From: a virus | Reading direction: 5' to 3' (one strand) | DNA length: 64,000 nucleotides | Virus record (IMG/VR): IMGVR_UViG_3300008120_000018 | Span: 43,195-107,194 of that record | Part shown: positions 5,057 through 49,616 of the stretch, piece by piece | Numbering within the stretch: the first letter of the stretch is position 1 | Layout of the letters: each line of letters begins with the position of its first letter | Program-made: the position numbers and the translations under genes | The notes under the pieces: model-generated | What the model saw: only the letters and a program-made list of their open reading frames with translations | Databases searched by the model: none | Told to the model about the DNA's origin: nothing

Positions 5057-8000
5057 TTAGAAATCAGGATGATCTTCAGCTTCAGCGAGTTCTAGTTTAT
5101 AGTCGCCGAGGTCGAGATGTACAACAGTTGCGATTTCCAACAGCTGCTTAAGTTGAGGGTTCCTGACATAGTTAGAGAGTTGGAACTCACTTACCATGTC
5201 GAACACACTAACGGGGACGATATCATCAGCGCCATAACTGGCTGCGTCATCCTGGGTCATAGGAACCACAGGATCATGGCCCTGGCCAGTACGACGGAAG
5301 GCTCCGTATATGGCAGATGACATGATAAGGCTCTCGCGAGCGAAGTTGCCCCGTTCGAGAGCACCGTATGTGAGAGTACGGGCGCGGGCCTTTATAAGCT
5401 GGTAGATTACCGCGGGCTCCTTAGCCAGCTTAGCGGGCATAAGGTCAGCCATAGCCCGAGCAGGAGGTACACCACCTCCTTGGCGATCCGTATCCAAAAG
5501 CTTAGTGGAATTGGCAGAGTAGTATAACCCGTCCTGCGACGACTTATACATAGGTACGCCAGCAGCCCAGGCGCGGGCTGCTTGCACTAAAGTAGCCATG
5601 AAGATCTTAGCCTCAGGGGTATAGCCCCCGAGACCCATGCTTTCATAGACGAAACGCCAGGCGATAACACACGCTTTAAGTGCGTCGGTATCGACGCCGC
5701 TAGCACGGTACATACTATCCCAGGTTTGGAAGGCAAGTGCAGAACAGATACCATAGCCAACACCTACGGCTACTTTATAATGCGTGTGCACCTCAGCAGC
5801 GTCGCTGACGTACTTATCGACAGCGATAGCAGTAGCTACAGGCTTATCCCACTTAGTGAGGGATTTCTTGCCTATCTTATCTTCATAGCTCATGAAGGCG
5901 AAGAACGGCAGGTCATCTGCTTCGTAGCAGTAGAAGTAGCCGCCTATGCCCATGAGACTAGCATTGATAGTGAGGGCACTCTCAGCGTCGATACCGTATT
6001 TGTGAGCATTAATGCCGCCGCACTGGTCACCATCAGCATCGCCTTCGTTAACGGCGTGCCATAGGAGAGGGTTGACTGTGTAGTGTGCGACGAAGGCATC
6101 GGTAGTAGATAACTTAACGCGGCCGCATAGGACGAAGCCCATAGGAGTCCGTTGTATCCCAATAACCTGACCTTCTTCGATGCCAAGCATACGTACCATA
6201 GGGCAATTGGGGTGCATGAGAATTACAGGCACGCCATCAGCGCTATGGAGCAAGGGGCTATAGCTGGTCTTGACCTTACCAACGACCACATCGCCAGCGC
6301 GGGCCATACTCTTCATAATGCCTTTGGATTTAACCATGGTGTTACACCATGTGCGTAAACCGCGGCTGACCTTAGCGGTCATGGAGTAGATTTTACTATC
6401 CAAACCGCTTTGGTCTTCAATTCCTACATCAGTAACGTAGGCCAACAGTGTCAAGAGGTCTAGCATAATACCAGTAGCGGAGGCGCCAGAGAAGGTACCG
6501 AACGCGCTTAGGGCCTTACCATTGATATGAAGAGAGACTTCATTACCGTTATTCTGAGCAACGATATCCACTCCATCGGGGTAGACGGTAGCAAAACGAT
6601 CTAGCAGATTGCGGTCACTGCCAGGGGTGCTATCAGAAACATAGTTGTTAACTACGCCGATAATGTCCCGTAGATGGTCACGCCCCTCAGTAGTGCTGAT
6701 GTTAATACAAGCATCACATTCCTTAGATGTGATCATACTAACTATGGACATGACGTTATCGTATTTAACCTCCTCCATGAGCGCTTCGCCCCAACCGCGG
6801 TTCTGTAGAGCCACAATACCTATCTGCTCCATAGTCATTTTGGAGAATGCTACGGACTCACGAGGAGTGGCTATCTCGATATCGTATGGCAGATAGCCGT
6901 ATATAACCTCTACTGTTTCTTCGATACGGACGCTGGTATCGTCGATGTCGATTACCTTGATGTCATCGTTAGTTACTACGGAGGAGATGGAATCCCACAG
7001 GTCGCGGGCCATATCAAAGGAGATGACCTCTTTAACACTGGCTCCAGTATCATCAGTAGCCAGTTTGGCTTGAGCCCACTCAGTAAAGGTATTACTCTTA
7101 GTCATAAGATCAATAACTTCACCAGTATCATCGATGGTGAGAAGCGCACCTTCGGGAGTATAGGTGCAGCCCCCCTTCTCAATGGCGAACATCTCTATGA
7201 GCGCGGGCCATCCCTTGGTGGTCTCGTTATTTAGGATGATATCCCAGGGTTGAGATAGTCCCTCAACGTCATAGGGAAGAGTGGTAAGCTTCTTACCTAG
7301 ACCGCGGAGTTTGAGGGCTTGGTCGCGCCCCACCATCTCGGTCTCAAGTCGAATAGTGACGCTATCAGCGCGGCCCTCGACGCCATTACGCGTGACAGTC
7401 CCGCCTATTACGCGGATGTCCTGCGCGAATGTCTCGTTCTTCACTATGCAGTACTTGCCCTGCATAATGCTAATGATAGAGTTACCAGGAGCATAAACCT
7501 GGCCCTTCGCTTTCTCTATCTTGCCTTCGATGACTTCCATGAGTTTACTCGTGGGGTCATCTAGATCAGCAGCCATAAGAGCGCGAACTGAGCTAGGAAT
7601 ACGGAGTACGTGAAACTCCTTAGTAATGGTCTTCGGTACGGTGTATTCGAACTCAAGGTCGCGGCGTATAGCAGCAACACCACTGCCAAAGCCAAAGCGG
7701 CTATTGGTGAATGCGGTGCGTAGATAGAGGCCACCACCACAACTATAGTTACCATCACCTAAATCAACGCGAAGTAGACTATCACGACGATCTATAATCT
7801 CAGCACGAGTGTATTTACCCGAGCTAGGCGGACGGTTGTACACCTTAGTGGGCTTGCTAAAATCATGGATGGAGTATATCTTACTATCCTTAAGTCCGAG
7901 GAACATGGCCTTGGCACCCTTACCTACAGCGATCCATTTTGCATTGTATTTATCAGGTGCTGCTATGACATTGGCTTTGAGCGACAATTCAAGATCGCTG

Positions 8001-22314: not shown

Positions 22315-22583
22315 CACTCTCAGACTACAAACTCACATACGAGATAACATCACTACCGACTATAATATTCGCTGGGATGACCGCGGCGGATGAGCCATTT
22401 CACTTCACTCGCTTTGAGGTGCCCCCCATTAATGGTCCTATCGAGTGCCGCTTTTCACTATTCGATAAGTCAGGTAATTTAATAGAGTTATCTAATCAAT
22501 ATGTGCACAGTACTACGCTAGTGGCTACCTGCAATATAGTGCCACTGCGTATGATAGAGAAGCTAGTTAAACCAGATCCATAG
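22308..22583 (+). CDS. Unknown small beta-rich protein, 91 aa
   Basis: ATG overlaps the end of the previous frame. The protein resembles a single beta-sandwich domain (YKLTYEITSLPTIIFAG, FTRFEVPPINGPIECRFSLF). Its last 17 nt overlap the end of the convergent 3562-aa gene, so the two opposing messages share DNA. Function unknown. Confidence 0.5.
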   Translation: MVTLSDYKLTYEITSLPTIIFAGMTAADEPFHFTRFEVPPINGPIECRFSLFDKSGNLIELSNQYVHSTTLVATCNIVPLRMIEKLVKPDP

Positions 22584-25500
22584 AGTAACTCTCACTCTCA
22601 TCTCGATAGGCCATACTATTAGGACGATCTACTGTTAGGTCGCTCATGTAGAGGGCGTCATAGGTGTCGTATTCATCACCATTGAATATAGTTTGTACGA
22701 AGAACTCAACAGGGGAGCCCGTGTCATCTACGACCTCGGTTTCAGCATTATCCTCTCGTTCCATGCGAGCTCGATTCATACCTTCTTGAGTAGCGCGTAT
22801 ACCAGCACTAACAGCGTCTAGAGCCGCGGGGGCTACACTACGCTGCATACTGACCTCTAACCCACGATGAAGTAACTTATTTACGAAGCCTGCTGATACG
22901 AGACTCAATGCCCCCGTGATGACGTTGCTAGCTACATTACGCAGGCCCGCGAATGGGTCAGAGTCTATTGTGGGCGCCTTACCGAGTGTCTTCTCTACGA
23001 ATGGGTTGATAATATAGCGGCCTGCGAGTTGAGCTGTTGCGCCAAAGGCTATCTCCTGTGCTAGTAGCATACCGACACCAATTGTATAGTCCTCGTGTAG
23101 TTGACCTGCTAGGCGGCCCTTGAATCCCATACTCATCAGAGTACCTGCAGCGAAACGTCCCATCTGGTTACCTGCTGGGGCGCTTACGTAGGCCATAGCG
23201 CCTAGCATATTACCCATAGTCTGCTGCATTGCCTCGGGGCGGGCTCCGCCACTACTAATCATATCTCCTGCCAGTGCCATTAGGGGGAATAGAAGTACAT
23301 CCATTAGATTACCGGCAGTATTGTTAAGAATAGGTAGATCATCTGCTACGCGTAAGAGGGGGCGGTCTGGTCGCGGGCGAGGGTCTAGTGGGTCTACATC
23401 AGGGGGTGAGCCGGCCAGTAGATAGTCGCGCCGACGAGCTGATAACTCCTTAGCTCTATCTGGGGCGACCCCCATATCCTGTAGCAGTTTTATATAGCGC
23501 GTATCGACGTCACGGCTCTCATAATCTCGTAGCTCCTCTACTAGTCTATCGGCTGTATCTACCTGCTGACCTAGTGCTGTAGCGCGAACATAAGTAACTA
23601 ATCGACTAGTGGCTGTCTCATCTGTGAGAACTGTCTTCTGAATAAATTCTGCTATCTCCTTATCAGCTGGGCTAGGGGTACCGCTATTGAGTAACACACT
23701 AAAGATATCTGCTATTTCATAGCGCTTACCATCAGCGTGAGTGAAGGTATCCATAAGAGACTCGAGGGCCCGTGTTACCTGCTCAGGCTCGTTTATCTTC
23801 CCGGCTGATACAGCCTGTAACAGTGATCTAACTAGCGGACTAGCTCCTGAGCCAGTAAGGTCACCAGCGGTAGTAATCAGATCCTGACCGAGTACATCCT
23901 CTAGTTGTCCTCCGTATAGTGTGGAGCGGGTACTATCATTAATAGCGAAGCGCAGTAGTTTACTGCCATCAGTATTAGCCCAGAGTGATGCACTCTCCCT
24001 ACTACGTAGGAAGTTCATAGCTAATATACGCTTAGTATCCGTACCCATATCCTGGAAGCGCTTATCTCCTATTACATCACGAGTGAAGTTCTGGAACTCT
24101 TCTACTTCTATCTCCATCTCGGTGAGGCCATTAGTGATGCCGCCTGCTATGAGAGTATCTATCTGAGCGGCCCGCGCGGGCTCACTATTTATGTAGGTCT
24201 CTACACTCTCTGCTAGGCCTCTACCAGAGCTAATGGGGTTACCTGCCTTATCGGTTGGCATAGCCCGCTCGAAGGCGAATACAGCCGTCATACCTACTAG
24301 GTCCTGACGTAGTTGATAACTGGCTATGAGGGCGCGGCTATGAGTACCTATTTCATCTCCTCGCAGTACGCTCAATCGACGAGATAAATCTAACTGCTCA
24401 GTTTCTCCAATGGATAGCTTAGTCAGCAGATCATTAATCTTAGAGTCCTGGGCATCATTAGTAGCTGATGCCAGTAATTCTTTATGAGCCCCTATATACG
24501 CATCTAACTTGAATAGAGGAGTTATAGATGGTAGTAGTCTACTCATATCATCTACTACACGCTGGCGCTCCACATCATCGACAGCATCTACAAAGCGCTT
24601 ATGGTACTGCGATAAGTTCTCTAGGAACTCAGCACCCCCCATCTTAGGCTTAATAGCGTCCCGCAGCATTTGCTGTATCTCTTGTAGGAATGTGCCTACC
24701 TCGCCTACCTCTGTTCTACTCTGGCGGGCCAGTCTCTGTATATCCACTATCTTACTATCGGCCTCTAGGTTAACATCACTCGCGCTCATGCCTCCTGCCA
24801 TACCCTGATCGATTAGTATACGACGCATGTCATCCTGTAGGGCCGAGCTATTCTCTAGTGCGTGAGACACAGCCATGATGGGGGAGCGCTCGTATAGCAT
24901 ACCCACGGTAGTGTTATACGTCTTACCGAGGATTACACTACCTGCCTGGCCCAGTACCTTCTGCATCATATCGAATTGGCCGCCGCTCATGACACTACCA
25001 TCAGCGCGCTTCATGTACTTGCTGAGATTATCGCGGGCATTAACAGCAGTTAGTTTATGCAGGAAGTCATAGGCCTTCTCTTCCTGATCATTACCTGTAG
25101 CGCTCAGGATATCATGTAGACTAGCCCGCACGAATGGCCCCGTATCAGGGTTATTAACAAGATCGGTTAGTATGTTCTGATCCGTAGAGGTAGATAATCT
25201 ATTGACTATATCAACTGCACTATCAGTTCTGCTCTGCTGTATTAATTCTAATAAGGGCTCATGGGCCGGCTGTATACGCGCGTATACGTCCTCCATCATA
25301 CCGAAGAGACCGCGGGACTGTTCTACTAATACCAGGGCATGTTCTATACCTCGCTGTTCCAGCATACCCTTATCTAATTTCATATAGCCCGCTACCCAGC
25401 TATACACTGAGTCGGTATACTCATTCCAATTAGCATTAGTGGCTACCTGCTGTATAGTATCCAGTAGAGCACTGGCACGCATATCTAGGTCATTAGCTTG

Positions 25501-28500
25501 CTTCTCTAGAATGGTGCGCTTAGCGGGATCAGCAGCCTGAGATGCCATCTCCCGCCGCTCCTTAGCGCGTTCCAGCATATCATCACGCTGCAACTTCATC
25601 TGAGAGTAATTGAAGAATATAGCGCTGAAGGTATCCCCGTCGAAGTCCCCTAGGTTACTAGTTATAAAGCTGATGGGATTAAGTAGAGTCAACGACTTAT
25701 TACGAGTATCATCAAAGAAGTTAAAGCCACTGCCAGTTAGGTCCCGGTATATGTTATTGATACTATTGAGCGTATCTAAGCCGAACACCAGCTTATCGAG
25801 ATGGGTGTTCCCAGGAGGCGGGCTACGTTGAATCCAGGCTCTTGTTAACTCTAGCTCAGTGAAGAACATACTCATATCAGCCTGTAGAGTACTATTCATT
25901 ATGAGTAATGAATCGCGCGCCGCACGATTAGCCATTACTGTATCTAGTTCCACTGCATAGGCAGCGTTTGCATCACTTACCAGCTTCCTATACTGAGCTA
26001 TGAGAGCTACACCTCTATTATGTAAATCAGTGCCCCGCGGGCTCTTACCTTCTAAATACGTATCTACAGCAGAGGTCACGGCATTAATAGTTCTCTCTAG
26101 ACTATCTAGTCTAGTAGAGAATGTATTCAGCATCTCAGCACCATCCTTACCACGCGTATCGCTGAAGAAGGATAGGTCTATGGGATTCTTACGTATACGG
26201 CCCTGTAGTAGATCCAGGTTATCAAACCTATTACCTAATGCATTAGTGTCAATGTAGATCCGCATATTATCAGGTATGATAGAGCGGGACGGGCCCTGAC
26301 TACCTATCATGAGCCCAGAGATAATAACAGGTAAGTGACCCAGATCTCTATACTTATGAGTTTTAGCTCCAGGCAGAGATTCTAATATTGTTCCCATCTC
26401 GGCTTCACCTAGAGTAGATATTAGAGAATCCCCGCTACCGCTGAATTTCATGCTACTGAATCTATCCATCTCAACTTTAATTTCTATCTCTAGTTGAGCG
26501 TATTCAGCTGCCTGTGAATCAGGAGCCAGTTTTCTTATACCGGCTGCTTTGCTCTGGAAGTTCTTACTTTTATCTACTACTGTCTCTAGCCCATACATAC
26601 CCGCTATACTGAGACCCTCAGTTATAGCGTATATCTGCTGTTGTATTAACCTGCGACCAATTCTCTTATCACCTGACTGGCTAATAACAGACAGGTTATT
26701 CTTAAGATGGTCCCCTAATCTACTAAGTATCTCCTCTCGTGTCTGACTACCTCGCGTACCAAAGCGCTCCATAGTGGCCTCTGCTAGTACGGCGCCGCGC
26801 ACAGGTACATACCAGCTAGCGGCCCCTACACCAGTAGTACCTGTCACACCTATCTTATTACCAGTGATAGACTGCAGATATGCACTCGCCAGGTCATTAT
26901 AAACGCGGGCCTCATAAGTGTTATTGAGTTCCTGGAACCGAGTCAACTCCTGTATCTGGAAGTCACTGAGGCCCTCTAGTTCAACAGTAGTCCTCGAGCC
27001 AGACTCAATGGCCACCTTCTCGAAGATATCGCGTACTGCACTACCGGGGGCCAGCATAATCCACTTATCTACCGTAGCAGCGGCTATCTCATTCTCGTGG
27101 CTACCGAACTGGATACCTGCTATCCTCACGTCCTCAGGACTCAAGATAAATCCCCTATCCTTAATAGTTGTATTGAATACAACGTTATTCCCCTCTATAC
27201 GGAAGGAGGGGAACTCATAGGCTATACGACGAAGACCCTTCTGGCCCATTGACTGCACGGTAGCTTCAGTAGCCTCTACACCCAGTACCTTATCCCCTGC
27301 TAGACGCCAGCGAGACGCATGGGCATATACATCATTCTTCAGGACACGAAGTGACTGGCGCACTACATTACGCAGAGTATCTCTATCGGTCCCAGCAGGT
27401 TGCCCCATCCATGTAGCTATCTCATCAAGTATAGTATGAGTAACATTAGTAGTATCGAGGCCCGACCCTCTAGTATATGACACCATGTCAGTATCACTGG
27501 CACTCTCGAGTAGAGACAATGCAGTGTGGAACTGCCTGTATCGTTCGCGTAGATTAGTTATATCACTTAATGGGGCCCGCGCATCGTTATATGCTCCTAG
27601 TAGTATCTCTCCCAACGTAGAGTTAGCGTGGAAGTCCAGACTAGCCAGGTCATACATAGGGATATCATCCACCGCTATTTTATTGGGGTCTGCCCCTATG
27701 GCCATCTTCATGACGCCAAGGATAGCCCTACGCATACTATCAACACTACCATCACGCTTGAATTTATCCACGTTAGCCATGAAGGGACTAGATACTATAT
27801 GCTGCATTTCTAGTTGCGCAGTGTCCTTACTACTCAATGGCACCTTAGAGCTACTACCCATCACGGCATTATATAGCACTACATAGCGAGAGTAATTACT
27901 CAATCTATCGAGCATAACGGCCACGTTCTCCTGGCCTACGCTTATCTCATCTGCCTGCGTAACACCTGCTATAGCGCTCATAGCCGCATACGCATGACGA
28001 GATATACTATCGCTACCAGTCACTGGCGTAGTCTTGAGCTCTAGGGTATTATTAAGTGACATGAGCTGCATCATAATCTCTAGATTACCGGCTATAGCAG
28101 CACGCTCAAAGCCGCGACCCATAGCCCCAGTATCTACATAACCCCTGCGCGCTGCATCTGCTGCATCTACTATCAGACCTACCTTATTAGATAGTGCCCC
28201 GCTACTAGTTCCACTGCGCAGGGCCATCATTATCTCTGATATATCAATGGCCCCTAGAACAGGACTCTGTAGTCTATTAATAGCACCATCACCCCCGCGT
28301 ACTAGCTTCTTACCTATTTCGAGATGAGGGGGGCCATCTCCTAGTTTATCATTCCGCATAAGTTCCAGCATAGTAGACATATAGAGGTCACGATAGTAAT
28401 TACCGAGCCGCCCCTGCGCTGCCAACTGCGCTATCTCTATATGGACACTGTCTATATTAATATTGCTGCTATTACTAAAGAGACGCGAATCAGTTATGGA

Positions 28501-31500
28501 AAGGAGAGCGGCCGCTATCTGCTGATCATTCCGTTCTAGTACCCCCCGACGGAATAGCTCCCCGCCATTATAGGTAAGTAGAGTAGCCCCGTGGTTGAAT
28601 GCGTAGCTCTTCAGGTTAGTGGGGCTGATTATATACTGGATGTCCTCTATCTCGAGGGCACTATGATAGCCCCCCTGCTGTATAGTGGGGAACACCTCAC
28701 TACGCATAACGTCCTCGCTCAGGAACACAGGGACTATCTTAGCCAGACCGCGCTCTGCCTCTACCCTTCGAGAGCCACCCTCAAGTAGAGTGCGTAGGAA
28801 TTGTATCTGCACCTGCACCTCATTAGTAGCATCGCTACCAGTCAGCCTACTGACCTGTAGTAGCTGCTCAATAGCGTACTCGCCTCGTATACCAGCTGCG
28901 GCACTAGTAGCCATAGCGGCCCCCATATTAGGATTACGGGATGTACTCTCTATCTGGTCTAGGAATACACGCATCTCACTACGACTAGTGATAGCCTGCT
29001 TACGGCGCCCCTCTCTATCTAGTAGATAGTAGCGCTGCTCTCTCTCATCGAATACAATACGGTCATCGCTACTCACCAGTATATTATCGAATGTCCAATC
29101 CCGCCCTAGTAGACTAGCCTTACTACTCTTAGTAGCCTGATCTAGGAAGCCGCGTCTTACCCTATGTAGAGGGTTAGCATACGCGTAGTCACTATAGGCT
29201 CCCTCCAGTGCCATAATCATAACAGTAGGACGGGCCTGTCCAGAGCCTATCAATCCCCGCTCTCTACTAGCGAATAGCTGAGATTGCACTATAGTGGCGC
29301 GGAATAACTCGGCCAGTACGCTATCATCCTCAGTGGGTATATCCTCACTATCGATACCCAGGCGGTCGGCCAATTCATACCGTATAGCCTCTAATTCTAC
29401 AGCTGCCTCACTACTCATAAAGCGAGATATTCTACCACTGAATATAGCACCATAGCGATAGCTATCATCTACGATACTACTATCTAGTCCACGTGCCTCT
29501 AACCCGGCGCGCAGGTCAGCTAGGTATGCGTCCTGATACATGCTGCCCTGCAGTACATCTACATCGCTACCTCCGTAACGGGCTTGATACCTAACGGGGG
29601 TCAACTCAGGTATGACCCTACCGGTATCAGTGGGACTAACTAACTCCAGCACCCGGGTATAACCCTCGCTTATATCCATGAGCGGGCGCATACCAATCAC
29701 GTTCTTGAGACGCTGAGGCACCTGATCCGGCTTATTAGGATCAAAGAAGAACCGGAGTAGATTATCGCCGCGGGCATCGAACTCTGCTTCTAGCAGGGAG
29801 CGGTCTATGCCCAAATGGCTCACTGCCTTCATGTATTCACTCAGCTCATCTCGTCGTATGATATCTCCCACACCAGTACTGCGTATGATGGATAGGTCGA
29901 AGACCTCACTGGCAGTGGCACGGCGAGATAGAGGTAGCACATTATTATAACCAGTAAAGTACTGGCTCTCATCAGTAGCCGTAGGGCCTGCATTACCTTC
30001 AGCAACTCGTACAAAGAGAAAGTCATCGCCTACACCAAGATCAGATACCGGACCTACAGGCAGTGGGCTGGCAGTATAAGCAAAGGCACTCAGGTTACTA
30101 AAGGTAGTCTCATTAGCCTTAATACGACGTAGTGCGGCATTAACTATAGATATACCAGCGGGCTGCCTATCCTGACCAAAACCGTAGGCTAGTAAGCGAT
30201 TACTTGCTTGTGTAGAACCATAATTACGAGCCTGTGTAGGGGTAAGGAACGCGGCGAATGCACTATCATGTATCTCCTTTAACCTCTCGCGCGCATCAGT
30301 CTTATAGCGACTATCATTCTGGGATTCGATAAACTTGAATAACACATCAGCGAACATAGGGCCCTGATCCATAATCTCATATAGCTTATTAGCAGCAAGA
30401 TTAAGGGCCCCTCTGCGGTGTGCCTCTAGGTCTATTATGGGCTGGCCTCTTTCATCTGCAGACCGCGCATAGGTAAGAAATATGTTAGATAGTTCCTCGA
30501 AGGCCACTCTACGGCGGCTATCAATACGAGATATACCCGCTAGGTCTCGTATACGATCTAGATCGGGGTCACTAGAGTAAAACAAGGAGGTCAGGTTACT
30601 GAGGCCCTGCTGTACTCTACTAGTACCCTCGTCCGTGGTTAGGTCAAGACCACTCACGCCCAATAGCTTCTCGAAGAAGTTCATGGCACTCTGATACTGA
30701 GCGCCAGGGTCGCGCTGTACGGCTTGGGCAGCGCGTATATTATCAGGGCTATAGTACCTCTGGTACTCTATAAGTGGGGCCCGCACTAAACGAGTAGTCT
30801 CACTCTCTAACGCAATAGAGCTCATGAGACCCACTACTACATCCAGTGGATTAAGGCGCAGGCGTCTACGGGGATCCAGACCCACACCAAGACCATCACG
30901 TTCTATAGCCAGCTCCATACGCATTGTGCCAGTATTGAACAGCTCAGCTGACTCTATCTGACGACCCCCGCTTATATCTATGAAGGCGGCGGGCCCCTGT
31001 CCACTAGCGTTCTTATAGGCACCCCATCTATATACACGCTGAGTAGGTAGGCCCTTATTGAGCGTTAGAGTAGCGCCCTCTAGGTTAAGACCATCGTAGT
31101 CTCGCTGTACGCCTATGACCTCAGAGCCTACAGCCGCGTTAACTCTCTCTATTTCGTTGATTAGGTCCAGTATGGCTCCTCTATCTACTCTATTACCGTA
31201 CATAGACCTACGGTCCCGTTCACTATAATGAGTCTCACCTATTCGTTGTATTCCCAGGGAGCTCTGTAATTTATAGAAGGCCCGCGCGTATTCTCTATTC
31301 TCCTCATTACGCTCCTCATTAGAGAGACTGAGAGGGCTTGTACCCCCCACCCTATCGTAAATTATATTGATCTCCTGGTTAACGAATTGGCGGCTCAGGG
31401 GATCATCATTATCTGCCAGAGAATTAAGACCATAGTTACTAGATCCCTGGCTACCACCCAGGATATCGAAGGCCTGGCGATTGTTTATATTCTGCATGTC

Positions 31501-33255
31501 AGGCCCGGCCCCTTGATTTATGGCGTCATTCTCGTAGGTCGCCAGATATGCCTTAACGTGGCTGCGCGGTACTGCAGTCGGCTCTATATTACCGCTAGCT
31601 ATAGCTAATAGTTGTCGGGCCATACGCTGCTGGCCTTCGAGATCTCCACTATAGAAGCCATACGTGCTCAGCACGTTAGCCATATCACTAACATCAGTGC
31701 CCCGGCTCTCCTTAATCCAGCGGGCCACGTCATAATTAGATTGAGATAACTCAGCAGCTAGTTTCTGGTTGCTTAGTAGTAAGCGGCTCATAGGGTCCTG
31801 CACATCCTCTCGATAGGTATGTACATCTACTCCTATACGAGCGCGACCCTCTATAACCAAATCTAATACATTAGCCTGGAGCTTAGAGTATTCCTGCTCT
31901 CTGGCTTGCATGTATGCCTGGTAACCCGATAGTGTTCTCTCGTGCTCAGGATTCTCTCCCATCTCTCCCTTAAGCTGGCTTGCCATTAGGGTCTTATCGT
32001 GTTTGAGTAGGAACACCTGATTGAGTACCATATAGAGGCGGCCCGTCTTACCATCGATAGTAGGCCTATTAATGAGCTCACCTACATGGCGGCGTAGAGC
32101 AGTATTAATATCACCAGCACCGCCTATACTATCCTGCCCCGTGAATAGAACTCTATCGCCACCATCTAATCTATCCATAACATCACGAGCCTGTAGGTAT
32201 AACTTATCGGCCCGCGTTATGGTGTCAGGCAGTATACCCCTATCGGCATCCTGTATTTGGCTATAGGTCAGGTTAGTGCGTATAGTCCGCGTGAACTCTA
32301 CATTAGAGCCCGCCTGTTCTAGCGATTGTCCTAGTGGCCGCGTCACGTTCATCGTACCTATGAGAGCGGACCTATCACTAACGAAGAACTTAGGGTGATT
32401 ACGTCTATCAGCCCATTGGATATCTATATCTACATCAGTCCCGAAGCGGTCCCGTAGATAGGACAGCCGCTTATAAAACATAATGTTGGGGCCCAGGATA
32501 TCATAATTCTTACGAGAGTCCCCATCAGTCTCAGATGGGGCAGCCATACGAACTACCACACGACCACCCTGGCCACTACCAGCTATCCTCTCTACAGCTT
32601 CACCCACCATATCTATAGCGCGCTCATTCTGGAACTGATAAATATCTATACGCAGTTCTCTCTCTGCTGTATCTACTAGCGCGGCAATAGGTAGTAAGCC
32701 GGGCCGTACATTATAACCATCATCAGATAGTAGATCCAACATGCTAGAACGATTCTCTAGTAGTAGGCGGCGTTCATCGTCTATGCCCTCTAGGTTAGAC
32801 CGCATAGTGAGCTGATCTCGCTGGGCCATCCAATTAAGCATATCATCAGTCTGGGTACGGGCAGGAGTAGCTGTACCCCCCATACCTGCTATGTATTCGA
32901 AGTACTCCTGACGAGCGGGGCCCTCTATACTATCCCATAGACTCGAGATAGCAGCTCGACTACTACTAGTATCAACTACCCTATCATAGAAGGCATCAGC
33001 TAGCACCATCTCCATAGAGGCGTCGGTACCAGGTGGTATAAAGTTAGGGTCCATTAATACTTCTAGAGGATTGTAGCCCTGTAATAATCTACTGCGCGTA
33101 TCCTCAGGAATACGGTAGAGGGCATTCCAACGAGCACTGTCATTAAATCGATTACTAGAGAATAGTGAGCTATTGATATCCATCAGTAGAGTACAAAACC
33201 TATTAAATAGAGCTATAGCTGAAAAACTGCCTACTTTAGCGGGCAGTGGCCTCAT
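22567..33255 (-). CDS. Giant 3562-aa protein: PLD-like N-terminus and RNA-polymerase-like DFDGD motif
   Basis: One open leftward frame of 10.7 kb. Near residues 200-320 there is a phospholipase-D-like half-domain: IDIYQFQNERAID, GRVVVRM, then HPKFFVSDRSALIGTMN (His287, Lys289, Asp294, Gly300, Asn303) and SNVE. A second weaker copy, KHDKTLMAS, lies at 418-426 with Asp replaced. Much of the middle is helical. At 2525-2545, LNPISFITSNLGDFDGDTF gives the DxDGD catalytic loop (Asp 2537, 2539, 2541) of RNA polymerases, followed about 200 residues later by SVILGKTYNTTVGML. The C-terminus (about 3260-3450) has Ala/Gly/Met-rich hydrophobic segments. By family knowledge this resembles crAss-like virion polymerases, or a tape measure carrying one. 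The start may instead be the Met at codon 26. A purely structural role remains possible. Confidence 0.7.
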   Translation of the reverse strand: MRPLPAKVGSFSAIALFNRFCTLLMDINSSLFSSNRFNDSARWNALYRIPEDTRSRLLQGYNPLEVLMDPNFIPPGTDASMEMVLADAFYDRVVDTSSSRAAISSLWDSIEGPARQEYFEYIAGMGGTATPARTQTDDMLNWMAQRDQLTMRSNLEGIDDERRLLLENRSSMLDLLSDDGYNVRPGLLPIAALVDTAERELRIDIYQFQNERAIDMVGEAVERIAGSGQGGRVVVRMAAPSETDGDSRKNYDILGPNIMFYKRLSYLRDRFGTDVDIDIQWADRRNHPKFFVSDRSALIGTMNVTRPLGQSLEQAGSNVEFTRTIRTNLTYSQIQDADRGILPDTITRADKLYLQARDVMDRLDGGDRVLFTGQDSIGGAGDINTALRRHVGELINRPTIDGKTGRLYMVLNQVFLLKHDKTLMASQLKGEMGENPEHERTLSGYQAYMQAREQEYSKLQANVLDLVIEGRARIGVDVHTYREDVQDPMSRLLLSNQKLAAELSQSNYDVARWIKESRGTDVSDMANVLSTYGFYSGDLEGQQRMARQLLAIASGNIEPTAVPRSHVKAYLATYENDAINQGAGPDMQNINNRQAFDILGGSQGSSNYGLNSLADNDDPLSRQFVNQEINIIYDRVGGTSPLSLSNEERNEENREYARAFYKLQSSLGIQRIGETHYSERDRRSMYGNRVDRGAILDLINEIERVNAAVGSEVIGVQRDYDGLNLEGATLTLNKGLPTQRVYRWGAYKNASGQGPAAFIDISGGRQIESAELFNTGTMRMELAIERDGLGVGLDPRRRLRLNPLDVVVGLMSSIALESETTRLVRAPLIEYQRYYSPDNIRAAQAVQRDPGAQYQSAMNFFEKLLGVSGLDLTTDEGTSRVQQGLSNLTSLFYSSDPDLDRIRDLAGISRIDSRRRVAFEELSNIFLTYARSADERGQPIIDLEAHRRGALNLAANKLYEIMDQGPMFADVLFKFIESQNDSRYKTDARERLKEIHDSAFAAFLTPTQARNYGSTQASNRLLAYGFGQDRQPAGISIVNAALRRIKANETTFSNLSAFAYTASPLPVGPVSDLGVGDDFLFVRVAEGNAGPTATDESQYFTGYNNVLPLSRRATASEVFDLSIIRSTGVGDIIRRDELSEYMKAVSHLGIDRSLLEAEFDARGDNLLRFFFDPNKPDQVPQRLKNVIGMRPLMDISEGYTRVLELVSPTDTGRVIPELTPVRYQARYGGSDVDVLQGSMYQDAYLADLRAGLEARGLDSSIVDDSYRYGAIFSGRISRFMSSEAAVELEAIRYELADRLGIDSEDIPTEDDSVLAELFRATIVQSQLFASRERGLIGSGQARPTVMIMALEGAYSDYAYANPLHRVRRGFLDQATKSSKASLLGRDWTFDNILVSSDDRIVFDEREQRYYLLDREGRRKQAITSRSEMRVFLDQIESTSRNPNMGAAMATSAAAGIRGEYAIEQLLQVSRLTGSDATNEVQVQIQFLRTLLEGGSRRVEAERGLAKIVPVFLSEDVMRSEVFPTIQQGGYHSALEIEDIQYIISPTNLKSYAFNHGATLLTYNGGELFRRGVLERNDQQIAAALLSITDSRLFSNSSNINIDSVHIEIAQLAAQGRLGNYYRDLYMSTMLELMRNDKLGDGPPHLEIGKKLVRGGDGAINRLQSPVLGAIDISEIMMALRSGTSSGALSNKVGLIVDAADAARRGYVDTGAMGRGFERAAIAGNLEIMMQLMSLNNTLELKTTPVTGSDSISRHAYAAMSAIAGVTQADEISVGQENVAVMLDRLSNYSRYVVLYNAVMGSSSKVPLSSKDTAQLEMQHIVSSPFMANVDKFKRDGSVDSMRRAILGVMKMAIGADPNKIAVDDIPMYDLASLDFHANSTLGEILLGAYNDARAPLSDITNLRERYRQFHTALSLLESASDTDMVSYTRGSGLDTTNVTHTILDEIATWMGQPAGTDRDTLRNVVRQSLRVLKNDVYAHASRWRLAGDKVLGVEATEATVQSMGQKGLRRIAYEFPSFRIEGNNVVFNTTIKDRGFILSPEDVRIAGIQFGSHENEIAAATVDKWIMLAPGSAVRDIFEKVAIESGSRTTVELEGLSDFQIQELTRFQELNNTYEARVYNDLASAYLQSITGNKIGVTGTTGVGAASWYVPVRGAVLAEATMERFGTRGSQTREEILSRLGDHLKNNLSVISQSGDKRIGRRLIQQQIYAITEGLSIAGMYGLETVVDKSKNFQSKAAGIRKLAPDSQAAEYAQLEIEIKVEMDRFSSMKFSGSGDSLISTLGEAEMGTILESLPGAKTHKYRDLGHLPVIISGLMIGSQGPSRSIIPDNMRIYIDTNALGNRFDNLDLLQGRIRKNPIDLSFFSDTRGKDGAEMLNTFSTRLDSLERTINAVTSAVDTYLEGKSPRGTDLHNRGVALIAQYRKLVSDANAAYAVELDTVMANRAARDSLLIMNSTLQADMSMFFTELELTRAWIQRSPPPGNTHLDKLVFGLDTLNSINNIYRDLTGSGFNFFDDTRNKSLTLLNPISFITSNLGDFDGDTFSAIFFNYSQMKLQRDDMLERAKERREMASQAADPAKRTILEKQANDLDMRASALLDTIQQVATNANWNEYTDSVYSWVAGYMKLDKGMLEQRGIEHALVLVEQSRGLFGMMEDVYARIQPAHEPLLELIQQSRTDSAVDIVNRLSTSTDQNILTDLVNNPDTGPFVRASLHDILSATGNDQEEKAYDFLHKLTAVNARDNLSKYMKRADGSVMSGGQFDMMQKVLGQAGSVILGKTYNTTVGMLYERSPIMAVSHALENSSALQDDMRRILIDQGMAGGMSASDVNLEADSKIVDIQRLARQSRTEVGEVGTFLQEIQQMLRDAIKPKMGGAEFLENLSQYHKRFVDAVDDVERQRVVDDMSRLLPSITPLFKLDAYIGAHKELLASATNDAQDSKINDLLTKLSIGETEQLDLSRRLSVLRGDEIGTHSRALIASYQLRQDLVGMTAVFAFERAMPTDKAGNPISSGRGLAESVETYINSEPARAAQIDTLIAGGITNGLTEMEIEVEEFQNFTRDVIGDKRFQDMGTDTKRILAMNFLRSRESASLWANTDGSKLLRFAINDSTRSTLYGGQLEDVLGQDLITTAGDLTGSGASPLVRSLLQAVSAGKINEPEQVTRALESLMDTFTHADGKRYEIADIFSVLLNSGTPSPADKEIAEFIQKTVLTDETATSRLVTYVRATALGQQVDTADRLVEELRDYESRDVDTRYIKLLQDMGVAPDRAKELSARRRDYLLAGSPPDVDPLDPRPRPDRPLLRVADDLPILNNTAGNLMDVLLFPLMALAGDMISSGGARPEAMQQTMGNMLGAMAYVSAPAGNQMGRFAAGTLMSMGFKGRLAGQLHEDYTIGVGMLLAQEIAFGATAQLAGRYIINPFVEKTLGKAPTIDSDPFAGLRNVASNVITGALSLVSAGFVNKLLHRGLEVSMQRSVAPAALDAVSAGIRATQEGMNRARMEREDNAETEVVDDTGSPVEFFVQTIFNGDEYDTYDALYMSDLTVDRPNSMAYRDESESYSMDLV

Positions 33256-33311
33256 AGGATTATATCAATCAGCTTATCTGATATCTTATAGCACATACAT
33301 GGAGAGACGTT
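33256..33311. promoter_or_regulatory. Divergent spacer between giant gene and late operon
   Basis: A 56-bp AT-rich spacer with CTTATCTGATATCTTATAGC. It must carry the start signals of the giant gene on one side and of the late operon on the other. GAGAG lies just before the ATG at 33312. No clear consensus promoter stands out. Confidence 0.4.
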
Positions 33312-33674
33312 ATGCACACTATCACATTACCGAAGGGCCAGTTTGAAGTTAGCTTTAAGCCGCCCCTGGTTTACGACCGCCGCGAGATGATCAAGCACTA
33401 TAATAAGGAGTGCGGCCTATTACCTGAAGAAGTACTAGCTATCCGTTGTATTGTTAACATCAATGGCCGGGTCCTGGATAGCGATGCCTACGACTACGAA
33501 CCCGATGGTATCACCGACGACTGGTGTGTCGAGGACCAACAATACTTCATGGAGTTATTCAGTACCCTATATCTCATTGACGATAAAGGGCGCGAGAAGG
33601 CCCAAGCGGAGGCAAAAAAGCTTATGGGTGTTTCCACGCGAGCTACGACTACAAAATCGAAGCAAGTCACCTAA
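33312..33674 (+). CDS. Tail-assembly-chaperone-like protein, short form
   Basis: 120 aa: MHTITLPKGQFEVSFKPPLV, then LLPEEVLAIRCIVNINGRVL and an acidic C-terminus. The small size, acidic ends, a conserved slippery site near the 3' end and a long open -1 frame behind it match the G/GT-type tail assembly chaperones of lambda, Mu and many other tailed phages. Those proteins coat the tape measure during tail building. The -1 product is listed separately. It lies next to the giant gene, in the position that normally precedes a tape measure gene. Confidence 0.75.
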   Translation: MHTITLPKGQFEVSFKPPLVYDRREMIKHYNKECGLLPEEVLAIRCIVNINGRVLDSDAYDYEPDGITDDWCVEDQQYFMELFSTLYLIDDKGREKAQAEAKKLMGVSTRATTTKSKQVT

Positions 33675-34105
33675 ACCTTCATCTAACGTACTTCCACCTA
33701 ATAAACACTGAGTTATTCTGTAAGAATGCTGCGCTCCAGCGTATAGCCGACCCTCTGCTACAAATTGCTGGCAGTATATTCCCTAGTGCTAGGTTTATAG
33801 TATCGCCGCCACCTGACCCCTATCTACCCGTTATTAAACATAACTATGTGGTTCGGGTGGCGCAGAACTATACCAAGTACTATCAACTAGAGAAGTGGGT
33901 TATAATAGCTAGCGTCACTGGTATAGGATTGCAGGAGTTCATTCAGCAAGACGAATATATGCAGGAGGCCGCTTATCAAGCGGCGTCTAACTATATTCAG
34001 AATCAGAATAAGAAACAACAGCAATCCCTAGAAGAAATGACTAAATCTTTAGAGAATATGAACTCTAACCCACTATCTGAAATTAAGAAACCCTCATTCT
34101 GGTGA
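33312..34105 (+). CDS. -1 frameshift product (GT-like), about 264 aa
   Basis: The first 103 codons are shared with the short form. At 33614-33620 the message reads A AAA AAG in the zero frame, a canonical -1 slippery heptamer, and the next codon in the -1 frame is GCT at 33620. The -1 frame is then open for 161 more codons to the TGA at 34103-34105: AYGCFHASYDYKIEASHLNL, ALQRIADPLLQIAGSIFP, YLEKWVIIASVTG and a Gln/Asn-rich tail. No ATG or ribosome site opens this frame upstream; the only initiators are GTG codons at 33848 or later, which would discard half of a coding-like region. So the downstream part is best read as the chaperone's frameshift extension, not as a separate gene. Confidence 0.8.
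33614..33620 (+). other. Slippery heptamer for -1 frameshifting
   Basis: A AAA AAG, phased with the reading frame (codons GCA AAA AAG at 33612-33620). It is the same heptamer used in E. coli dnaX. Both overlapping frames are coding-like around it. No strong downstream hairpin is obvious within 40 nt. Confidence 0.85.
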
Positions 34106-35442
34106 ATATGGAAGTACGTAATGCCACCACGCCAGCAATACGCCGGCGCACTATCTACGCTATGGAGCACCTAGGCCTAGCCACTAGTTATCTATCTGAG
34201 GATGGTGGCTATAAACGAGCAGGCAAGCCTACCTACCAGCAGCTGAGTGCCTGGGATGAGGCAGCGCAGGCGGAGCCTATCATAGCGCAGGGCCTCGACT
34301 CTATAGCGCTAAGCGTGCTTAATAAAGTCGGGCCCTATCAACACGGGGATAAACGCATTAAGAAATTCATAGATGACCAACTACGCAATAGAGCCAAGAC
34401 ATGGATATCTCATTGCGTGAAGTCTATCATGACGTATGGTTTCAGCCTAAGCGAGCAGATATACGCCCACGGCGAGCGTGATAGTATGCCGGCTACGGTA
34501 TTAGACGACATAGTTAATTATCACCCACTACAGGTCATGCTCATCACTAACGACAATGGCCGTATAGTAGATGGTGATACAGTAACAGCTAGTCAATACA
34601 AGTCGGGCTACTGGGTGCCTCTGCCTCCCTATAGAATAGGAGACCCCCCTAAGAGAGTAGATGTGGTAGGTAGTCATGTACGGCTCCCTAGTCACAAACG
34701 GCTATTCATTAACTACAACACTAAGGGTAATAATCCCTGGGGTACCAGTTGCCTCACTAGCGTGCTAGACTACTCTATCTTTAAGCGAGCCTTTCGAGAT
34801 ATGATGCTCATAGCTCTAGACCGCTATGGTACCCCTCTCATATACGTAATAGTGCCACCCGGTAATACGGGCGTAGTAGAGGAGGCCCCCGATGGTACAG
34901 AGATAACCACTACTATAGCAGAGCAGGCAGAGGACGCACTCCGTCGTTTAAGCACCGACTCTGGTTTAGTATTAACACAGCTCAGTAAGGAGCAGCCGGT
35001 ACAGGTGGGGGCCCTAACTACAGGTAATAACTTCAGCGACTCATTCGAAAGAGCCGTATCACTCTGCGATAACAATATGCTAATGGGTATGGGTATCCCC
35101 AACCTACTGGTGCAAAATAGAGAGGCTACCTTTGGTACAGGCCGGGCCAGTGAGATTCAACTAGAGCTCTTCGATGGTAAGATCAACAGTATATTCGATA
35201 CAGTGATACACGCCTTCACTGAGCAGGTCATAGGCAACCTAATCAGGTTGAACTTCGACCCCACACTATACCCACTGGCCAGCAACACAGGCTATATAAC
35301 TCGTTTACCAGGGAGGGCCACTGATCTAGCAGCATTGATAGATGCCATTAAGCAGATGCACGACATGGGCTTCCTAGTAGATGGAGATAAGGATCACATA
35401 CGTTCCATTACTGGATTACCCGATGCCATTAGCTCTACCTAG
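34102..35442 (+). CDS. Portal protein, Mu gp29-like (DUF935)
   Basis: 446 aa. The start is a GTG that overlaps the frameshift gene's stop; an ATG two codons later is an alternative. Features of Mu-gp29-like portals: N-terminal recognition region, RAKTWISHCVKSIMTYGFSL, NYHPLQVMLI with a trailing NDNGRIVDGD, HKRLFINYN with NPWGTSCL, IALDRYGTPLIYVIVPPG, LSTDSGLVLTQLS, RATDLAALIDAIKQMHDMG. Portals form the 12-fold DNA channel of the head and bind terminase. Here it begins the head-gene run, followed by a Mu-I-like protease and the capsid gene, so the head module is Mu-like. No terminase is in the window. Confidence 0.85.
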   Translation: MNMEVRNATTPAIRRRTIYAMEHLGLATSYLSEDGGYKRAGKPTYQQLSAWDEAAQAEPIIAQGLDSIALSVLNKVGPYQHGDKRIKKFIDDQLRNRAKTWISHCVKSIMTYGFSLSEQIYAHGERDSMPATVLDDIVNYHPLQVMLITNDNGRIVDGDTVTASQYKSGYWVPLPPYRIGDPPKRVDVVGSHVRLPSHKRLFINYNTKGNNPWGTSCLTSVLDYSIFKRAFRDMMLIALDRYGTPLIYVIVPPGNTGVVEEAPDGTEITTTIAEQAEDALRRLSTDSGLVLTQLSKEQPVQVGALTTGNNFSDSFERAVSLCDNNMLMGMGIPNLLVQNREATFGTGRASEIQLELFDGKINSIFDTVIHAFTEQVIGNLIRLNFDPTLYPLASNTGYITRLPGRATDLAALIDAIKQMHDMGFLVDGDKDHIRSITGLPDAISST

Positions 35443-35833
35443 GCTTTACGCGATGACGTAGTTCGTTCTGCCGCGCTCGGTATGCTAGGTGCCAGTCTCG
35501 CAGTATGAGATGTTTACAGTAACCTCGCTGAGGGCAACTACAGTCTGTGCCATGTATTTGATAAATATTACCACGAGGTGACTCTACTATCTCACCTCCC
35601 TCAACTGCAGTATAAGTATAGCCCTCAGTTAGCATACGGCCGGCCAGGTAATTATAGTATGTAGACTCGAGCGTACCTTGTAGTAGGGAAGTTATATCTA
35701 TCTTATAGGGCTTGGTACTCAACCCCTCATCGAGGTTGAAGACCAGAGAGGTATCCTTAATAGTCGCATTACGAATACGGCGAACGAGAAGTCGCTCTAG
35801 AGCTTCTAAAGCCAATAATCTTTCTAATTGCAT
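35435..35833 (-). CDS. SWIM zinc-finger protein, antisense inside head operon
   Basis: 132 aa; start at 35833 with AGGTAGGAAAT upstream; an in-frame extension reaching into the protease gene is not needed. The C-terminus has DCSCPQRGYCKHLIL, the CxCx(n)CxH SWIM zinc-finger motif, which binds DNA or proteins, for example in transposases and ATPases. It is on the opposite strand between the portal and protease, with its stop overlapping the portal stop by 8 nt. It may be a moron-type inserted gene with its own promoter. Confidence 0.75.
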   Translation of the reverse strand: MQLERLLALEALERLLVRRIRNATIKDTSLVFNLDEGLSTKPYKIDITSLLQGTLESTYYNYLAGRMLTEGYTYTAVEGGEIVESPRGNIYQIHGTDCSCPQRGYCKHLILRDWHLAYRARQNELRHRVKPR

Positions 35834-46179: not shown

Positions 46180-48051
46180 ATGCGTCCTAAGACACCTGCT
46201 GCAGTAATAACGCTGGCCACAGCTGTTAGTGATATACAACCTATATTATTTGGCACTCAGATATGCGCTACTGATATAAACAAGAGTCGCTGGACTGTAC
46301 GCGCCGTAGATGTTATAATCAATGCCGATAACTGGAATATAAATAGAGCTCGCGTAACGCTAACCGTACCAGATGCACCAGGATTACTACCAGCGCTACC
46401 TGATGTTAGTAAGTACAGGGGCGGGCGCTACCCCTACCTCAGCGAGGAGGATGAGATTCGAATTTACATGGGGATGGTAGGGTCAGATAAGCAGGTACTG
46501 GATATCAGTAATCTATCTGATATACCATTTCCTATACCAGATACAGATATGAAACCGAAGGAGGGCGCTACTCTATTCCCTGTATTCTGGGGCTTCATTG
46601 AGAAGGTAGAGGTAACGGCTGATGCTAATACAGGTGTGCAGGTAGTGCTATCGTGTCAAGATCGTATGAGGCTACTACACAACACACGTGTTCTATCTAA
46701 CCCAGATACCTTATTCAGTGCCCCCACACCAGAACAGAAGGGCGATAGAGCCCTCATACTGCGTAAGATACTGAACTTTGCAGTAGGTTACTCCCCTATT
46801 GAAACAGAGAGCGGCCCGCAGGTAGCCAGCTGCTGGAAGGAGTTCAAGGAGGGTATGACTGTACGCGGCTACGACATAGGAGCAGATGGTAAGATAGAAT
46901 ACTTATTCGCTAATAAACTAATAGCCGGAGATGCGAGTAATTCTGAGGTTAAGATTATACAGGACATGAATAAGCTTACGCCAGGCGAAGAGCTAGTAGA
47001 TGCGCCGCGTTGGACACGGGCTGCTATGTTCACGCCTATGAGCCCAGGAGGTAACCCCCGTACTCATATATGGTTACAGCGCCCGCCTATCGAGCAGGGA
47101 CAGAACCGCGGGGTATTCAACTTCATTAATGAGAGCCCCGCTGATATAATACAAGCAGCGTTTCTACTCAAGGAGGAGCGCGTAGTAGACGCCTCATTCA
47201 GCCATATCAATGGTGATTTTATAATAGCGCCTAATAGCGGCGATACTAGTGGCTTCCAAGATCCCAATAGGCTGTATAGAACCTATTTCTTCCGCAGCCT
47301 ACCGGCGGGTCTTAACATATGTCCTGATGAGAGACAGCGCATACTCTCCATGCGGGTAGTAAGTAGTAGTATAGCCACAACTAACCGCTTTATAGTAACT
47401 GATGATGGAGGTAATGGCGCATCTGATTCATTCAATGATGCCATCGAGGTTACATTACAGGCCACGCCCTATAAGTACGCTAATAGAAATCCTCCTATTG
47501 CATGTAGGGCCACTGTCGTTGAGGATAAGAACCTAAGCGCCTATACTGACGCAGGCATCAGTAAAGAGACAGGGGCTTTATTAGTTGGTTTAGGTATGGC
47601 CCGCCGTACCAGTAGAGATATTAGCACGATACAAATCACGATAGTAGGGGACCCCACCTGGTATCCGAATGAGATGTTTCAAGTGTATAATACATTGATA
47701 CACGATAGGCAGATTATATCAGCATATGATTCTATAGCAGAGGAGAGTGCTATGCACGCTACTAAGAAGGAGTTGAGTAATCTATCAGCGCGCATGCGAG
47801 AGCACGTAGCAAGTAGCCCCTCGGCGCGGGCCGTGCCCTTTCCTGATGGCAGTGATATACTAACACGGTACGTAGGTGCCCACGTCAATGCCACTGATGA
47901 TAACTATGCTGATCCTAATAGTGGCCGCATAGTCAGCAATGTAGACGCTAATCTAGCTAACGCGGTACTACCGAAGTACAAGGTACGCTCGATTCGTCAT
48001 AAGTTAACACACAGAGATTACACTACTACTATTCAAGGAAGCGCTGATTAA
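46180..48051 (+). CDS. Baseplate hub protein, gp27/gpD-like
   Basis: 623 aa. Early strands DVIINADNWNINRARVTLTV and the FWGFIEKVEVTADANTGVQV phrase, followed by VVLSCQDRMRLL, fit the tail hub or late-control-D-type proteins that join the tube to the spike. The middle has mixed regions with KLTPGEELVDAPRW and PADIIQAAFLL; the C-terminal part includes STIQITIVGDPTWYPNEMFQ. The gene precedes and touches (TAATG) the spike gene, as expected for hub and spike. Confidence 0.75.
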   Translation: MRPKTPAAVITLATAVSDIQPILFGTQICATDINKSRWTVRAVDVIINADNWNINRARVTLTVPDAPGLLPALPDVSKYRGGRYPYLSEEDEIRIYMGMVGSDKQVLDISNLSDIPFPIPDTDMKPKEGATLFPVFWGFIEKVEVTADANTGVQVVLSCQDRMRLLHNTRVLSNPDTLFSAPTPEQKGDRALILRKILNFAVGYSPIETESGPQVASCWKEFKEGMTVRGYDIGADGKIEYLFANKLIAGDASNSEVKIIQDMNKLTPGEELVDAPRWTRAAMFTPMSPGGNPRTHIWLQRPPIEQGQNRGVFNFINESPADIIQAAFLLKEERVVDASFSHINGDFIIAPNSGDTSGFQDPNRLYRTYFFRSLPAGLNICPDERQRILSMRVVSSSIATTNRFIVTDDGGNGASDSFNDAIEVTLQATPYKYANRNPPIACRATVVEDKNLSAYTDAGISKETGALLVGLGMARRTSRDISTIQITIVGDPTWYPNEMFQVYNTLIHDRQIISAYDSIAEESAMHATKKELSNLSARMREHVASSPSARAVPFPDGSDILTRYVGAHVNATDDNYADPNSGRIVSNVDANLANAVLPKYKVRSIRHKLTHRDYTTTIQGSAD

Positions 48052-49616
48052 TGTTTGCTAATAATAATGGTGGCCTATACTCTGAGCCCTATTCCCATAA
48101 GTACAGTAAGAGCCAGTGGGGCATACAGCGCGGCATAGTCCATAATATCACTAGGGAGGGCCGCCTAGGTAATTTCTGCTCGGTGCGCCTATTGAAGGGT
48201 ATGATCCTGGATAACGTTAGGATGAGCGGCCCCTTTGGTCATAATGGGCTAGGCGTATACAACCCACTCGAGATAGGACAGCCAGTCCTAGTGGGCTTCA
48301 ATGATGGGAAGATGGAGGATGCCTTCATCATAGGCGGATATACATCAGAGGGTAACTACGATAAGTTATACGTAGATGGTGATTTACAGAAGCCTAATCA
48401 GCGCGGCCCCGAGGGTCAGACATTCAACCAACCACTAGGGCATCCTAATCGCATAACGCAGCCCAATGCCTTCTTCCACGTAACAGGCATCAATTCACTA
48501 GATACGGCGTATGATAGCCCTGATTACGGTTCACTAGCAGAGGCCTATGATAGACAACCCCGCCCCGGTGTTATAGAGATACGCAATGACGAAGGCACCC
48601 GCTCTCTCTATACAAGCGGAGAGAATATACTATTCAGTGATAGTAACATCTACCTGGTAGCTAACGGCGACCGCCGCAGCAGTGTCAATCACCTCCTGCA
48701 GCTATCAGCACGACACTGCGCCCGGGCGGATGGACTAGAGAGAATGCAGGGTATCAAGCCTACATCGGCTACCACGAAGTCACTGCCTAGCGGCATAACA
48801 CCTATGGTAACGGGGCAGGAGGAGGAGTCTGTATCTACGACTACTGCTATAACAGTTTCCTATCGTATACAAGAGGAGAGGCGGTTATGTCAGGCCTACC
48901 TAGAGGCTAGCCGCCAGAATTTACAACGACAGGCTGAGGGCATAGCGCGCGTTGAGGATAGTGCACAAGACATACCTACACAGAGGGAGCCTGAGGTATC
49001 TGATACATATAATGAAAGCCGTAAGAATGATAAGGACTGGCAGAGTGCTACTAATAAGGAGCCTACTCGCTGGTTCATAACAGCCGGCCACCGCGACGGT
49101 GTATCAGGTACTAGTGGAGCTGCTGGCACACCTCTACCCCAGGCCCCAGGTCAGTCGGCGGAGAGTTGGATGAATGAACAGGTTGTCAAGATAATGGAAA
49201 GACTAGCCCCCTCTTACGGTCTCCAACTATCTATATTCTTACCACCAATAGGTACCTCCTGGCAATCAGTGTTAGATAGAGCCGTGCAGGAGAAGGCCAA
49301 TGGCGCGGGTGTTCTAGAGATACACTTCGACGCAGGTGCGGCAGGAGAGTATAGGGGTTCCACTGGCGTCATACCTAGCCGTAAGGAAATACTACCATAC
49401 GAGGATAGACTAGCTCAAACATTTGGCGCCTTCACCAGAAATCACCGCAACGGCTTATACGGGCCCAATAGAGGAGTACCGCTAGTTGAGGTAGGAATAT
49501 TAAATGCGCAGGTAGAGGCTCTAATGAGAGGAAATGATACAGCAGCACAAAATGCCTATTTTGAAGAGAAGGCCCGTGCTGTTTTACAATCCCTGAAGGG
49601 GGGGGCACCAATATAA
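48051..49616 (+). CDS. Spike protein with OB domain and amidase_3 domain
   Basis: 521 aa. Residues 20-115 form a gp5/VgrG-like OB domain: RGIVHNITREGRLGNFCSV, GHNGLGVYNPLEIGQPVLVG, DAFIIGGYTSEGNYDKLY. The middle is a linker and the C-terminal 170 residues are an N-acetylmuramoyl-L-alanine amidase of the amidase_3 type: TAGHRDGVSG (His), VLEIHFDAG (Glu then His) and GVPLVEVGILN (Glu), matching the zinc and catalytic layout of that family. It would cut amide links in the cell wall as the spike passes through. A spike-enzyme fusion like this parallels T4 gp5 but with an amidase rather than a lysozyme. Confidence 0.85.
   Translation: MFANNNGGLYSEPYSHKYSKSQWGIQRGIVHNITREGRLGNFCSVRLLKGMILDNVRMSGPFGHNGLGVYNPLEIGQPVLVGFNDGKMEDAFIIGGYTSEGNYDKLYVDGDLQKPNQRGPEGQTFNQPLGHPNRITQPNAFFHVTGINSLDTAYDSPDYGSLAEAYDRQPRPGVIEIRNDEGTRSLYTSGENILFSDSNIYLVANGDRRSSVNHLLQLSARHCARADGLERMQGIKPTSATTKSLPSGITPMVTGQEEESVSTTTAITVSYRIQEERRLCQAYLEASRQNLQRQAEGIARVEDSAQDIPTQREPEVSDTYNESRKNDKDWQSATNKEPTRWFITAGHRDGVSGTSGAAGTPLPQAPGQSAESWMNEQVVKIMERLAPSYGLQLSIFLPPIGTSWQSVLDRAVQEKANGAGVLEIHFDAGAAGEYRGSTGVIPSRKEILPYEDRLAQTFGAFTRNHRNGLYGPNRGVPLVEVGILNAQVEALMRGNDTAAQNAYFEEKARAVLQSLKGGAPI

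Follow-up and report, generated by a model that had tools for sequence, protein, structure and literature searches.

We analyzed a window of 64,000 nucleotides taken from a virus contig of 107,194 bases. Megablast and gene order placed the window in Fukuivirus, the Ma-LMM01-like myophages of the bloom-forming cyanobacterium Microcystis: the nine public phage records matched by positions 33200-35500, at 96-97%, all belong to the Ma-LMM01 group, and the genes around the gp81 homologue follow the gp80-gp94 order of LMM01 (L051 in this analysis). The close relatives comprised 14 Fukuivirus sequences, corresponding to 10 distinct haplotypes. More distant relatives were the Microcoleus phage My-WqHQDG (L004), retrieved by tblastn with gp81 (36%), and two contigs added by IMG/VR scans (L019 and L027). 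Scans of viral contigs by portal and chaperone returned these same two groups only (Fukuivirus and the Microcoleus phage group), and a scan of a genome collection found no gp81 relatives in bacterial genomes. The locus contains the following features.

22567-33255, - strand: gp80, 3,562 aa, divergent neighbour of gp81, containing DFDGD; its homologue adjoins the gp81 homologue in L004 and L027
33301-33304, + strand: GGAG, a Shine-Dalgarno-like sequence 7 nt 5' of the gp81 ATG
33312-33674, + strand: zero-frame ORF, homologue of LMM01 gp81, with an ATG start and 120 aa, the putative G-like short product; homologues in nine public phage records, the Microcoleus phage and IMG/VR contigs
33587-34105, + strand: -1 open frame, stop to stop
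33614-33620, + strand: slippery heptamer A_AAA_AAG across codons 102-103; L027 has it at the homologous codon (5336-5342), where L004 (8328) and L019 (5354) have A_AAG_GAG
33620-34105, + strand: -1 extension of 161 codons (33620-34102) and a TGA stop (34103-34105), giving a predicted long product of 103 + 161 = 264 aa; homologous extension in the Microcoleus phage (BLASTP E 1e-9)
33624-33682, + strand: possible downstream stem, 33624-33633 with 33673-33682 and an inner helix of 33638-33648 with 33657-33667; weak and without covariation
33857-34105, + strand: portion of the extension that public records give as a gene of its own with a GTG start (LMM01 gp82), a start that we judge not to be real
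34102-35442, + strand: portal protein gene (Portal_Mu profile, E 1.9e-26), whose start overlaps or abuts the stop of the extension

The slip site and -1 frame of gp81

The earlier note had described a 120-aa frame that passes A AAA AAG in phase, with the shift at residue 103, followed by a -1 frame that stays open for 161 codons and has no start codon in its first half. Each of these points was borne out. The zero frame of gp81 reads GAG GCA AAA AAG CTT ATG across the site, where AAA is codon 102 and AAG is codon 103, and the -1 frame runs to 34105. Because the first ATG, GTG or TTG in that frame is GTG 33848, 76 of the 161 extension codons stand upstream of any usual start. The + strand of the window holds a single copy of the heptamer and the other strand three, and the copy in gp81 is the sole in-phase one among the 18,017 codons of the large ORFs in the window. 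When all in-phase heptamers of the X_XXY_YYZ type were considered (58 in the window), 56 led into a -1 frame no longer than 23 codons; besides the gp81 heptamer, just one has a long -1 frame, a G run at a gene end that overlaps the next gene.

Conservation of the heptamer in relatives, which the earlier note had named as a check, was found in all 14 Fukuivirus sequences (10 of 10 haplotypes) and, at exactly the homologous codon, in L027 (GCA AAA AAG CTC ATG), whose protein is only about 35% identical. At this codon L004 and L019 have GCA AAG GAG and thus A_AAG. L004 has no other Z_ZZN tetramer in its 36-codon overlap; the overlap of L019 contains one additional Z_ZZN site, G_GGA. A_AAG is an established minimal -1 shift site in bacteria, and A_AAA_AAG, which is also the dnaX site, was the most shift-prone among the sites compared in E. 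coli (PMC5009743). The apparent turnover between A_AAA_AAG and A_AAG at one fixed codon offers a natural test of sufficiency in cyanobacteria.

Selection on the -1 frame was assessed upstream of its first start codon. Within Fukuivirus, pN/pS over 33675-33847 was 0.31 in the -1 frame, compared with about 1 in each of the other two, on the basis of only eight changes. Between L027 and either L004 or L019, the stretch from the zero-frame stop to the first start gave pN/pS of 0.20-0.31 in the -1 frame versus 0.82-4.5 in the other two, and between L004 and L019 all nine changes in the same stretch were synonymous in the -1 frame. Judged by these substitution patterns, the -1 extension shows amino-acid constraint 5' of any usable start codon.

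From the slip site, from a -1 frame that is open and under selection, and from the deep conservation of both, we infer that gp81 very likely contains a programmed -1 frameshifting site that yields products of 120 and 264 residues. Most ribosomes would make the short form and stop at 33672, and a minority would slip back by one base on A_AAA_AAG, where both tRNAs would re-pair with AAA_AAA, to produce a long form made of residues 1-103 and 161 residues of the -1 frame. The predicted fusion junction is ...AEAKKAYGCFHASYDYK..., with the tryptic peptide AYGCFHASYDYK, and the predicted C-terminal peptide of the short form is LMGVSTR.

Two sequences near the site were considered as stimulators. The stem of 33624-33633 with 33673-33682 starts 3 nt past the slip site and can form in most Fukuivirus sequences; its energy relative to shuffled sequences corresponds to a z-score of about -2 in LMM01 and L008 and of -0.8 in the window, and no compensatory changes were found in its pairs among the Fukuivirus sequences. 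Because the z-scores are weak and covariation is lacking, we treat the stem as an unproven stimulator. GGAGG stands one base 5' of the heptamer in Fukuivirus and is absent in the Microcoleus group. A Shine-Dalgarno stimulator of -1 frameshifting usually lies farther from the slip site than one base, and GGAGG was rejected in this role for being too close to the heptamer and absent in the Microcoleus group.

Elsewhere in the window, an eight-G run (49598-49605) lies a few codons 5' of the stop of gp94 (48051-49616), and the -1 frame there is open straight into the next gene, which encodes a metallo-endopeptidase. This run is probably a chance occurrence, since it is not conserved in LMM01 (GGGAGGAAC).

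Predicted fold and role of the gp81 products

The earlier note had called gp81 a tail-assembly chaperone, a claim that predicted folds support and sequence families do not. Scans of gp81 and its extension against Pfam, NCBIfam and PHROG gave no informative match, and searches of PDB with gp81, by sequence and by fold, matched nothing. An hhalign comparison with the T4 gp26 family, using a profile built from seven phages, gave no match, with a probability of 5% over 24 columns. By sequence, gp81 belongs to none of the known chaperone families tested.

The window protein and its L027 homologue were modelled with AlphaFold2 at moderate confidence (pLDDT 65.5 and 70.8, respectively), and both models consist of a beta-hairpin followed by helices. 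In Foldseek searches against BFVD the E values were weak, the best being 0.007, with no match below 0.001. Among hits with functional names, 11 of 13 for the window protein and all 17 in the top 50 for the L027 homologue were tail-related, namely tail-assembly or tape-measure chaperones, T4-like baseplate hub proteins (gp26-type) and baseplate or tail assembly proteins; these counts were taken from printed names, and the two models are related, so that the searches are not independent. No head or portal protein appeared among the functionally named neighbours. These predicted folds suggest that gp81 is likely to be a tail-assembly chaperone.

The gp81 cassette lies directly 5' of the portal gene, an unusual locus, and the order gp81-extension-portal is common to both phage groups. 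This conserved order, together with the absence of support from sequence families, speaks for an alternative in which the frameshift is real but the pair works in the assembly of the head or portal, or in some other step. We consider this alternative unlikely, however, because the named structural neighbours are nearly all chaperones of the tail or tape measure, gp26-type proteins or baseplate proteins, and because a -1 frameshifted pair of such size among late structural genes is typical of tail chaperones (PMC5009743). Taken together, gp81 is probably a frameshifted tail-assembly chaperone gene of the lambda G/GT type, and Fukuivirus thereby gains a candidate tail chaperone whose sequence family is recognised by no library.

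If the gp81 products act as those of lambda do, their common N-terminal part would form a coat on the tape measure protein, tail-tube subunits would be recruited through the C-terminal part of the long form, and both forms would leave before the virion is completed. Client binding, product ratio and departure are proposed here by analogy.

The extension in public records

The earlier note had also foreseen that a standard gene caller would place a false GTG-started gene at 33848. Such a gene does stand in public records, with its start at 33857 instead: the equivalent of GTG 33857 is the annotated start in LMM01 gp82, MaMV-DH01, DL01, CH01 and CH02. In the RefSeq record of MaMV-DC the extension carries no gene at all, and in the public Microcoleus phage record a gene was started at TTG 8490.

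These annotations agree with a reading in which the -1 frame is a separate gene, begun at GTG 33848 or 33857 or at a non-standard codon and expressed with no frameshifting, and AUA, AUU and CUG codons are indeed present upstream. Nevertheless, purifying selection acts in the -1 frame 5' of these starts, and the slip site is conserved at one codon. The position of the first start, by contrast, is not conserved among relatives: it is GTG 33848 in the window, TTG 8490 in L004 and a GTG 135 codons into the extension in L027, whose first 135 codons contain no ATG, GTG or TTG. Neither GTG 33848 nor GTG 33857 is preceded by a Shine-Dalgarno-like sequence, as is also the case for many genes of this phage. 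We thus regard a separate gene as very improbable, and the GTG start of LMM01 gp82 and the TTG 8490 start of the Microcoleus phage are best read as gene-caller artefacts.

Even less probable is that the -1 frame is fed by transcriptional slippage on the A run and not by ribosomal slippage; six A residues followed by G could in principle let a polymerase add a base, but the run has only six A, and two relatives have just three. Split ORFs usually point to a sequencing error or a decayed gene; this reading, with practically no remaining probability, is refuted by the relatives, which show the same arrangement in nine isolate records and in several metagenome contigs of independent origin, both frames being under selection.

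Frameshifting in gp81 went without mention in the papers on PRFect (PMC10885494), the Ma-LMM01 transcriptome (PMC5780444) and MaMV-DH01 (PMC9927357). The kind of gene is well known, and this case is new to the annotated records and the papers searched. With programmed frameshifting as the preferred reading, this well-studied group of cyanophages receives a corrected gene model at a locus where the public records read show the gene split or missing.

Neighbouring genes and known systems

The neighbours of the gp81 cassette are the portal gene and gp80. The portal protein is labelled 'tail protein' in the RefSeq records of LMM01 and MaMV-DC. gp80 and the cassette stay adjacent in both phage groups, with their relative orientation inverted between the Microcystis phages and the Microcoleus group (same orientation in L004 and L027). 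Candidates for the tape measure protein are gp80 and LMM01 gp120, which has 2,898 aa and several hydrophobic segments. Elsewhere in LMM01, gp108 and gp109 (L051 6055-12643) lie in tandem and both match phrog_877 and DUF4815; they are possibly a duplicated long baseplate or tail protein.

gp80 carries the motif NLGDFDGD at 25633-25647 (residue 2537), which is kept in L004 and reads LLDYDGD in L027. The N-terminal part of gp80 includes HPKFFVSDRSALIGTMN, a match to HxKx4D, the motif of phospholipase D-type enzymes. In Thermus phage P23-45 the virion RNA polymerase is fused to a giant tape measure protein that carries DFDGD (PMC10770324), and by analogy gp80 is possibly a virion RNA polymerase or a polymerase fused to a tape measure protein.

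A second large ORF, for a hypothetical protein of 1,698 aa (5057-10153, - strand), contains RTP...NEGDADGD with the motif at 6026-6040, which resembles the DxDGD active site of two-barrel RNA polymerases. The region around the motif is 26% identical (E 7e-19) to a 2,470-aa Microcoleus phage protein that carries RTP...NNGDTDGD. The DxDGD-type motif is kept in IMG/VR relatives, with GDGDGD in one, and searches of PDB and Pfam with the 1,698-aa protein gave no match. This ORF had been considered as the tape measure gene by its length and was dropped from that role once the DxDGD motif was found.

A more tentative proposal, which we think unlikely, is that the client of the chaperone would be gp80, which would be a tape measure protein carrying a fused, virion-injected two-barrel RNA polymerase of the P23-45 kind, and that the chaperone gene would have stayed adjacent after an inversion of the giant gene. 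If gp80 were P23-45-like, the usual pairing of chaperone and tape measure would hold here. In that case the 1,698-aa gene would encode a second polymerase of the phage, one of the non-virion kind, against the published view in which MaMV-DH01, of the same group, is stated to have no RNA polymerase (PMC9927357). With gp80 as its giant neighbour, the locus allows a test of whether an RNA polymerase is fused to a tape measure protein. The likeness to P23-45 lies in the combination of a giant DFDGD gene with a second protein bearing a DxDGD-type motif; the differences are that there is no sequence match, that the gp80 motif stands far from the N-terminus and that the tape measure role of gp80 is putative.

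Vladimirov et al. reportedly identified tail assembly chaperones of T4-like phages in 2022, which we take to be gp26 and gp51 in T4, and T4-like chaperones are reported to work without frameshifting. Several of the best structural neighbours of gp81 are of the T4-like gp26 type, whereas gp81 lacks the Cys motifs of gp26 and its profile failed to match that of gp26.

Compared with the lambda G/GT class (PMC5009743), gp81 differs in having no family match, in lying directly 5' of the portal gene and in having only a candidate tape measure gene (gp80) beside it. It shares with that class a slippery heptamer near the 3' end of a short ORF and an extension that has no start of its own, and its A_AAA_AAG is the classic -1 site of E. 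coli.
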